From an uncultured Pelagibacteraceae bacterium (GTDB lineage: Bacteria; Pseudomonadota; Alphaproteobacteria; Pelagibacterales; Pelagibacteraceae), in contig CACKBP010000003.1 of assembly GCA_902598315.1 (NCBI GenBank), positions 62,001 through 126,000 on the forward strand: 64,000 nucleotides of DNA, read 5' to 3'. Below the pieces are notes generated by a model. The model was given only the letters and a program-made list of their open reading frames with translations. It was not told the DNA's origin and searched no databases. Shown here one piece after another: positions 25,991 through 27,712 of the stretch. Position numbers and translations under genes: made by a program. Position 1 is the stretch's first letter. Each line of letters opens with the position of its first letter.

Positions 25991-26059
25991 TTATCCCTCA
26001 CTGAATTACCGGTCAGGTTCGTTGGGTATGATCTCAGTCTTAATGACACCCCTTATACA
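25991..26059 (-). ncRNA. TPP riboswitch (THI element) controlling thiV
   Basis: Read on the minus strand, the region contains in order GGGGTGTC, the strictly conserved CTGAGA, ATACCC, GAACCTGA, GGTAAT and GTGAGGGA, the core of the thiamin pyrophosphate aptamer. The last conserved strand (GAGGG) lies about 4 nt before the thiV ATG and is also its Shine-Dalgarno sequence. Ligand binding would sequester it directly, so no separate expression platform is needed. The P4/P5 arm is compressed (CTGA pairs TCAG around CCGGTAAT). The element begins within 3 nt of the umuC stop codon, so it is intercistronic. Confidence 0.92.
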
Positions 26060-26061
26060 AA

Positions 26062-27339
26062 TTATATATTTATTTTAGGCAAGAAGTCAAATGAAGCTGT
26101 ATCTATCCTAGATGAGTGTTCTCTTCTCATTTTCCAATCGTTACTTATACCAGCTTGAGCTATACTAATTGCATTTCGGCCGTATTTTGCATTAGTAAAA
26201 TCGATTGCTCTCATTAATGGTTGAGATTTTTTCTCTAAAATTGGTGCTAATAAATTTAGCTCTTTTTCAGAAGCGTCTCTAAGCTTCGATAAAATGACTC
26301 CAGCTTTTTGATAGAAATAACCATATTTATAAATCTTTCCCAGTCCGCTAATTGCAGTTTTTACAAGTTCAATACTGTTATTAGTTGCCACAGGTAACTC
26401 AATAGTAATAGAATTTGAATAGTATTTTCTATTTTTGTCAAATGGACTTGTTCTTATAAATATAGTGACAGCTCTGGTAGTTTGTTTATCTATTCTTATT
26501 TTTTCTGCTGCATTTAAACAGTGAGTAGTTATAGACTCTTTTAATTTGTCTAAACTCTCAATTTTTTTTCCAAACGATCTTGATACACAACAGCTTTTTC
26601 TTCTCGTTTCCTCGGTTTCTAAATCTATACAAGGAATTCCTCTTAACTCCATTACTGTTTTCGCACCTAAAACATTTGTACTTTTCTTAACCCATGTGTT
26701 TGAAATATTCTTTAGTTTATAAGCATTGTCTATTCCGTTTTTGATATATAACTTTGATAACTGTCTTCCTACTCCCCATACATCAGCAATATCAAAATCT
26801 TTTAGTATATTATCAATATTTTCTTTTATAAATATTACTCCTGTTTTATTTTTTTTAGCTATATGATTGGCAACTTTGCTTAAAGTTTTTGTATTTGAAA
26901 TTCCTACACTTGTTGGTATTCCTATCCATTTTAAAACTCTTTCTCTTATTTGTTTACCATATTCTTCAACTTGTTCATCTTTGATATGCGATAAATCTAA
27001 AAATGCTTCATCTATAGAATAGATTTCAATTTTATCAGTAAATCCTTTTAAAACTTTCATCACTCGTCTAGAAAGGTCCCCATATAATGCATAGTTTGAA
27101 GAAAATATCTGAACGTTGTTCTTTTTAACTAAATCTTTAACTTTAAAATATGGTTCTCCCATTCTTATTCCAAGTTTTTTTGCTTCAGTAGATCTTGATA
27201 TTACACATCCATCATTATTAGATAGCACTACAACTGGTACATTTTGTATTTTAGGATTAAATAATCTTTCACAGGAAACATAAAATGAATTACAGTCAAT
27301 TAATGCAACTTTTTTTCTACTGCTGTTTGTGTATGACAT
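26062..27339 (-). CDS. umuC: DNA polymerase V catalytic subunit UmuC
   Basis: 425-residue Y-family polymerase for error-prone translesion synthesis. Motifs: KVALIDCNSFYVSCERLF (D.N.FY.S.E), VVVLSNNDGCVISRS, catalytic carboxylates in EIYSIDEAFLDLS, and the helix-hairpin-helix region DVWGVGRQLSKLYI. The C-terminal portion (little finger and UmuC-specific tail LLAPILEKKSQPLMRAIDF) is complete. Starts inside the umuD 3' end (23-bp overlap). It should be induced with umuD by DNA damage through the LexA box at 27717-27731. Confidence 0.96.
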   Translation of the reverse strand: MSYTNSSRKKVALIDCNSFYVSCERLFNPKIQNVPVVVLSNNDGCVISRSTEAKKLGIRMGEPYFKVKDLVKKNNVQIFSSNYALYGDLSRRVMKVLKGFTDKIEIYSIDEAFLDLSHIKDEQVEEYGKQIRERVLKWIGIPTSVGISNTKTLSKVANHIAKKNKTGVIFIKENIDNILKDFDIADVWGVGRQLSKLYIKNGIDNAYKLKNISNTWVKKSTNVLGAKTVMELRGIPCIDLETEETRRKSCCVSRSFGKKIESLDKLKESITTHCLNAAEKIRIDKQTTRAVTIFIRTSPFDKNRKYYSNSITIELPVATNNSIELVKTAISGLGKIYKYGYFYQKAGVILSKLRDASEKELNLLAPILEKKSQPLMRAIDFTNAKYGRNAISIAQAGISNDWKMRREHSSRIDTASFDFLPKINI

Positions 27340-27712
27340 ATGTTACTACTCCCCAAATTATTATTTCTGGATTATCTGTTAAATTAATTCGATCCGATGT
27401 GTTTTTTGAACCTGATGTTAAATAGTTGTTACCCTTACTTTTAACCAGAGTTTTGACTACAAGTTCTTCGTTGATATTTGCTATAACAGTGGAGAAATTT
27501 TTTGGATTTAAACTTTTATCTACTATTAATAGATCTCCATCATATATGCCTACATTAGTCATAGATTTACCTTGTACTCTAATGATGAAAGTAGCTGGTG
27601 CATTTGTTATGAGATGAGAGTTTAGATCTATATCGTCCTCAATATAATCTGTTGCCGGAGAAGGAAAACCAGCTCCCACTTTATGTAAATAATAAGGTAT
27701 TGTTAACTTCAT
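27317..27712 (-). CDS. umuD: UmuD, LexA-like autoprotease and Pol V subunit
   Basis: 131 residues. RecA-stimulated self-cleavage makes UmuD', which joins UmuC to form polymerase V. The cleavage site is A14-G15 in KVGAGFPSPATD (Ala-Gly instead of Cys-Gly of E. coli). Catalytic dyad: Ser50 in VQGKSMTNVGI and Lys87 in ELVVKTLV, 37 residues apart as in E. coli UmuD (60 and 97). No DNA-binding domain. Start codon lies only 5 bp from the LexA box, giving a very short leader. Overlaps umuC by 23 bp. Confidence 0.95.
   Translation of the reverse strand: MKLTIPYYLHKVGAGFPSPATDYIEDDIDLNSHLITNAPATFIIRVQGKSMTNVGIYDGDLLIVDKSLNPKNFSTVIANINEELVVKTLVKSKGNNYLTSGSKNTSDRINLTDNPEIIIWGVVTYVIHKQQ

Follow-up and report, generated by a model that had tools for sequence, protein, structure and literature searches.

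Which promoter supplies a vitamin-related gene that stands directly behind a pair of DNA-damage genes? Bacteria of the SAR11 group are very abundant in the ocean and rely on trace amounts of vitamin B1 precursors. The question is raised by the window, a stretch of 64,000 nucleotides from an uncultured Pelagibacteraceae bacterium (assembly GCA_902598315.1, contig CACKBP010000003.1), in which umuD, umuC, a thiamin pyrophosphate (TPP) riboswitch aptamer and thiV follow each other in this order, head to tail and all on the minus strand. A first, sequence-only reading of the window had proposed that transcription of thiV comes from the umuDC promoter and that DNA damage would thereby raise thiV mRNA, and it had named a promoter inside umuC as the alternative. 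Our comparisons favor this alternative: We consider it likely (with a probability of roughly 0.8) that the locus comprises two overlapping units, a LexA-repressed umuDC unit and thiV on its own embedded promoter with a translational gate operated by TPP. The umuDC genes would be transcribed from the LexA-repressed promoter and thiV from a LexA-independent sigma-70-type promoter within the last umuC codons, giving an RNA that would begin at or just before helix P2 of a compact TPP aptamer. With TPP bound, the aptamer would fold and hold the Shine-Dalgarno sequence GAGGG in helix P4 so that thiV translation falls; with TPP scarce, ThiV would be made and the cell would import hydroxymethylpyrimidine (HMP). 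With a promoter of its own, thiV would probably be independent of the DNA-damage response, and the embedding of this promoter in umuC can explain the tight linkage of the two genes.

The source genome of the window consists of 18 contigs and is 82.99% complete. Relatives were fetched via the window's ThiV and are single-cell genomes and metagenome-assembled genomes of Pelagibacteraceae or Pelagibacterales, including one labeled "Candidatus Pelagibacter sp." The family sample comprises 147 genomes, divided here into the window's genus (g1), its sister genus (g2) and other genera (g3 to g14), and a second set of 81 loci, consisting of the window and 80 others, partly overlaps with it. Coordinates as well as domain and Rfam matches confirm that umuD, umuC, the aptamer and thiV share one strand in the window (Table 1), and umuC immediately precedes thiV in the same orientation in all 26 g1 genomes that have both genes on one contig (73 to 89 nt apart as matched). 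This adjacency is beyond chance. Among g2 genomes with both genes, umuC lies 1.06 to 1.1 kb upstream of thiV (6/6), and in the genomes of other genera with both genes, 46.9 kb or more lies between the two unless they are on separate contigs (60/60). Within the 81-locus set, umuC stands directly before the aptamer in 75 loci, including four in which umuC is cut by a contig end; the others have a 1.2 kb insert (L075, L095, and L097), are cut (L059) or lack umuDC at that place (L106 and L108). One single-cell contig of 92 kb (CACKXF010000001.1) carries umuD-umuC-thiV twice (L084 and L085) with identical match positions, identities, gap and upstream letters, possibly an assembly duplication.

As the sequence-only reading had noted, the gap between umuC and thiV has no room for a promoter. 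Instead, a promoter-like site extends across the end of umuC (TTGACT-18-TATAAT at 26090-26061(-)), a good candidate for the promoter inside umuC that had been named as an alternative. With 11 of 12 matches, it ranks first among the 25 promoter-like sites in a scan of 24400-27900. TTGACT is present in all 70 genus loci with a full-length umuC directly before the aptamer, with the best -10 hexamer at a distance of 18 bp in 68 of them and 16 bp in the other 2, and also in both g2 genomes with the same direct arrangement (72/72 in total). TTGACA-like and TATAAT-like hexamers 16 to 18 bp apart, as typical of sigma-70-type promoters, are therefore conserved where such a promoter would be needed. Codon choice follows the same pattern: The Asp418 codon is GAC in 70/70 genus umuC genes, compared to 313 of 1456 Asp codons in the same genes, and it is the sole GAC-fixed column among 12 conserved Asp columns (runner-up 39/70). 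Similarly, the last umuC codon is ATA or GTA, which supplies the TA of the -10 hexamer, in 69/70 genes compared to 3/60 controls. None of 76 scorable umuC genes without an aptamer directly behind them contains TTGACT. These controls are 20 g2 genes separated from the aptamer by an ATP-grasp gene, 3 genes from genus loci in which such a gene intervenes as well and 53 genes of g3 to g14 (60 fetched of 70 genomes with a umuC match, 7 of these 60 not scorable). Controls that keep Asp at the site encode it by GAT in 21 of 22 cases, compared to GAC in all 72 genes directly followed by an aptamer.

Promoter-like sequence and adjacency are also coupled along the phylogeny. When the last 18 residues are left out of the UmuC tree, both adjacency and TTGACT require 6 changes, and the two traits match in each of the 5 independent pairs on supported branches. 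The combined pattern of promoter plus aptamer occurs in 28 of the 147 genomes of the family, all with direct adjacency (26 g1 genomes and 2 g2 genomes), and the reversed pattern in none of the 147; G064, G102, and G110, the three g1 genomes that lack the combined pattern, have a partial or unmatched umuC and/or thiV. Where an ATP-grasp gene separates umuC from the aptamer in g2, the gap between umuC and this gene contains TTGA(A/T)A-18-TATAAA (20/20). The genomes of L106 and L108 have no umuC match at E <= 1e-10 (0/2), and these loci keep TTGACT-18-TATAAG or TTGACT-18-TAAAAT immediately before the aptamer. This element aligns to umuC tails with no gaps inside the promoter and a similar spacing to the aptamer (ATTTGACTC), but it can be aligned to the region before umuD only with large gaps. 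An origin from an old umuD promoter is therefore disfavored, and the element is likelier, though not proven, to be a remnant of a umuC tail. The RimK-like ATP-grasp gene itself is variably present between umuC and the aptamer (L075, L095, and L097 at about 2795-3935; L112-L119 and L217-L228 in g2), and in the first three of these loci a short Cys-rich frame, metallothionein-like by eye, lies ahead of it.

The case for the thiV promoter rests on sequence comparison, and several results weigh against it. The compared sequences share ancestry, and a sign test with five independent pairs has a floor of 0.0625. The total of 25 promoter-like sites in 24400-27900 is close to the shuffled mean of 19.7, and the 3 genus loci with an ATP-grasp insert have no consistent replacement promoter there. 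A synonymous-constraint scan of the whole umuC gene found no 20-codon window past the permutation limit, tail included; such windows are too coarse for an element of 6 bp, which was detected by the per-codon tests. Energy folding of the single aptamer sequence was no stabler than shuffles (z of 0.39 and -0.31), so that the aptamer structure is based on the Rfam match and pair counts and not on energy. Finally, our promoter and terminator scan of the region found no terminator-like site between umuC and thiV. The sequence-only reading had counted such a terminator as potential evidence against its own proposal, and its absence leaves room for SOS read-through.

The aptamer matches RF00059 at 26063-25977(-) with 42.6 bits (E 2.6e-7), below the Rfam gathering score of 54.3 bits, and is therefore missed by a default Rfam scan of the window; it is the sole TPP match in the window's genome at E <= 10. 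Across the family sample, TPP matches at E <= 0.001 occur in 122 of 147 genomes, whereas just 16 of 147 have one above the gathering cut-off, which is thus strict for Pelagibacteraceae. The sequence-only reading had the aptamer begin within 3 nt of the umuC stop and run to the thiV ATG. It does extend up to the ATG, but its conserved core (GGGG of P2) starts only at 26052, 9 nt past the stop codon (26064-26062). Pairing across 32 sequences supports the core helices of a TPP riboswitch (P2 95%, P3 100%, and P4/P5 100% of cells) but not the closing helix P1 (40%). Most aptamer pairs are invariant, which leaves little covariation support, most of it at the outermost pair of P2. When P1 flanks were exchanged among the loci of the genus, the true combinations paired no better than the exchanged ones (6.29 versus 6.54, n = 79), and the same test is not significant in g2 (n = 17 of 22 tried) or in g3, g4, and g6 together (n = 13). 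By contrast, true flanks do pair better when g5, g7, g9, and g12 are pooled (12.41 versus 10.54, n = 17; 0 of 1000 shuffles as high), a signal that lies between genera since the test within g9 or g5 alone cannot tell; these tests leave out 10 of the 40 loci fetched for them, which the search pattern did not match. The genus aptamers (26058-25991 in the window, plus the genus loci) are thus under no apparent selection for P1, unlike those of the pooled genera. An RNA starting near 26053-26056 would begin at P2, and in this sense the missing P1 and the position of the putative promoter fit each other.

The upstream unit appears to be an ordinary SOS operon. As the sequence-only reading had recognized, a LexA-type signal precedes umuD: A GAACN7GAAC box, GAACAAAACAAGAAC in the window, is present in 73/73 readable loci and begins 18 to 19 nt ahead of the umuD start (in the remaining 8 of 81 loci, umuD is out of reach or its upstream region is too short to read the box). 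It is likewise found ahead of umuD in 8/8 g2 loci and in 7/7 other loci that include the region upstream of umuD (L145, L146, and L151-L155), and before lexA in 7/7 loci read (3 loci in opposite orientation were left out). This motif is the reverse complement of GTTCN7GTTC, given as the Caulobacter LexA consensus in the accessible part of PMC4211646, and it lies over the umuD start region as expected of alphaproteobacterial LexA-controlled promoters; we see no difference from known umuDC control, with LexA binding being predicted. A LexA match above cut-off is present in 21 of 31 genus genomes, and in the 83%-complete genome of the window the same search gave only UmuD matches and no LexA above cut-off. 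The bare motif proved unsuitable for a search for all members of the LexA regulon: It is not enriched in the window's genome (12 sites, compared to 20 for the reversed control) and hence cannot list regulon members.

Could SOS transcription nevertheless reach thiV? One possibility is a dual supply in which the embedded promoter provides basal thiV mRNA and SOS read-through adds a physiologically relevant amount. Besides the lack of a terminator-like site, this would agree with the persistence of the linkage in g1 and g2 despite differing flanking genes (the g2 unit is preceded by a gltX-like and followed by a lpxB-like gene, named by eye, unlike in g1). It would also agree with the induction of SAR11 umuD and umuC, which according to the accessible part of PMC12753301 rise together with lexA and recA during infection by phage HTVC027P. 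However, thiV has 0 occurrences in the paper that reports this umuDC induction, with gene order in that system not compared; two lineages keep thiV without umuDC; and the embedded promoter alone suffices to explain why the genes stay together. We therefore regard a relevant contribution of read-through as unlikely, though not far-fetched.

A broader version of the same idea arises from the diversity of genes behind the aptamer. In g1 and g2, the aptamer is followed by a thiamin gene (thiV, a NMT1/THI5-like gene or tenA). Specifically, the 23 aptamer matches of g2 precede thiV in 7, a NMT1/THI5-like gene (PF09084) in 15 and TenA in one case, and they stand directly behind umuC in 2 and behind the ATP-grasp gene in 20 cases (in G121, the upstream gene is unnamed). 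The NMT1/THI5-like gene is present in 15 of the 147 genomes, exclusively in g2 and never together with thiV. At L118:4054-4923 (G015) and in 14 more g2 genomes, it encodes a protein of 289 residues that replaces thiV behind umuDC, the ATP-grasp gene and the aptamer. This protein has no signal peptide by eye, and its best solved relative is the ATP-binding cassette (ABC) binding protein 4nmy (E 4.2e-7), compared to E values of 0.004 for THI13 and 0.0095 for THI5; it could be an HMP phosphate synthase or a pyrimidine-binding protein. TenA (TIGR04306, 149 bits, cut-off 130) is encoded directly behind umuDC and the aptamer at L145:2387-3052 (G077), and TTGACT-18-TATAAT stands before this tenA unit. 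It is conceivable, if rather doubtful, that an HMP-supply slot filled by any of these three genes is kept behind the SOS genes, with its own basal promoter, umuDC read-through and a P1-less TPP gate starting at P2. If this were true, the vitamin supply would increase in response to DNA damage or phage attack, but only under a shortage of TPP. Two further TPP matches in g12 precede a frame of 254 residues resembling a short-chain dehydrogenase by eye (L147, G048) and a Gcw_chp-family protein followed by a sodium:solute symporter family (SSF) gene (L148, G032).

For the gate itself, control of transcription (by termination or Rho) is quite improbable. The accessible part of PMC11452348 does speak of switching off transcription for the SAR11 switch, and it adds that ligand specificity and activity need confirmation. 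However, the scan of the region found no terminator-like hairpin at the aptamer, and the Shine-Dalgarno AGG is located inside P4 with the thiV start following closely (within 3 to 6 nt in the loci displayed; the matched start of L100 is set later). Occlusion of the ribosome site is therefore the likeliest mode, and we conclude that the riboswitch with its putative TPP binding probably controls translation.

The proposal of the sequence-only reading, by which the LexA-controlled promoter of umuD supplies most of the thiV transcription, with DNA damage setting mRNA levels and TPP deciding translation, fares worse and seems very unlikely. The shared strand, the lack of a terminator-like site, the invariable LexA-type box and the strict adjacency in the genus would all suit it. 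Yet the promoter-like element at the umuC end is coupled to adjacency, and a promoter-like element is found just upstream of thiV or the other pyrimidine genes irrespective of whether umuC is adjacent, displaced by the ATP-grasp gene in g2 or lost. Dependence of thiV on DNA damage is thus unsupported, and a start inside umuC driving thiV, which that reading had itself considered as contrary evidence, is what the aligned sequences suggest. Finally, it is highly improbable that TTGACT at the umuC end is no promoter and is kept for protein sequence, another DNA-binding protein or RNA structure, since the C-terminal Phe-Asp motif is partly conserved as protein also without an aptamer but neither the fixed silent base of its Asp codon nor the -10 hexamer that follows 18 bp downstream in nearly all genus loci fits this view.

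Table 1. Features of the umuD-umuC-thiV locus (positions in the window).
Feature	Position	Strand	Basis or remark
umuD promoter -35 TTGACT	27756..27761	minus	sequence; TTGAC-type element recurs in aligned upstream regions
umuD promoter -10 TATAAA	27732..27737	minus	sequence; 18 bp after -35
LexA-type operator (GAACN7GAAC) before umuD	27717..27731	minus	G000:C3:89717-89731
umuD	27317..27712	minus	NF007621, 138 bits (above cut-off of 110)
umuC	26062..27339	minus	PF00817, PF11799, DUF4113; 23-nt overlap with umuD
thiV promoter -35 TTGACT (proposed)	26085..26090	minus	within umuC codons Phe417-Asp418 plus next base
thiV promoter -10 TATAAT (proposed)	26061..26066	minus	spans umuC stop codon
TPP aptamer core (P2 to end of P4)	25994..26053	minus	RF00059 match; pair counts
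Shine-Dalgarno-like GAGGG	25995..25999	minus	AGG is 3' side of P4; 4 nt before thiV ATG
thiV	24539..25990	minus	PF00474 sodium:solute symporter, 50 bits; proposed HMP transporter

The best NCBIfam model for UmuC is NF002955 (UmuC), with a score of 393 bits below the cut-off of 431. Name and role of thiV are taken from the accessible part of PMC11452348; membership in the sodium:solute symporter family and the TPP switch upstream agree with an assignment as HMP/thiamin symporter ThiV (SSSP), with putative specificity. A search for thiV relatives in viral contigs found none (7 stretches fit the pattern, 0 confirmed).

Riboswitch and gene are an established pair. As far as the accessible parts of PMC2704228, PMC11452348, and PMC4260697 go, a TPP riboswitch upstream of SAR11 thiV has already been described for SAR11_0811 of strain HTCC1062, with an aptamer of the same family and a gene of the same kind as in the window. 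According to the same sources, the gene before that switch is annotated as a hypothetical protein (SAR11_0810) and not as umuC. The window further differs by the putative promoter within umuC codons and by an aptamer without selected P1. For the umuC-thiV arrangement, we found no description in the literature searched (supplements and most subscription papers were outside its scope) and do not claim to be the first to report it; for TPP riboswitches without P1, no riboswitch title was among the matches listed in our literature search. SAR11 lineages are known to differ in the thiamin-pyrimidine gene that they carry, with tenA in subclade IIIa (PMC10030771, accessible part); what differs here is that in g2 thiV, the NMT1/THI5-like gene or tenA can occupy one common position downstream of umuDC and the aptamer.

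What is unusual is the place of this established pair, and its interest lies in a promoter hidden in codons more than in the SOS link. Promoters of downstream genes within upstream coding sequences are a known arrangement in compact genomes, and the proposed thiV promoter similarly lies in the 3' end of the upstream gene. It differs from such overlapping promoters in that silent codon choice can be tracked together with the loss and gain of adjacency and in that the -10 hexamer covers the stop codon. The locus suggests that a streamlined genome can hide the promoter of a vitamin gene among the codons of a DNA-repair gene. The choice between synonymous codons in umuC would then carry regulatory meaning and tie two unrelated genes together. 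The locus also cautions that co-regulation should not be deduced merely from genes that leave no space between them. A testable prediction about minimal TPP aptamers follows from the apparent absence of P1. The swapping of thiV, NMT1/THI5-like genes, and tenA behind one riboswitch indicates that lineages may differ in the pyrimidine that they use.
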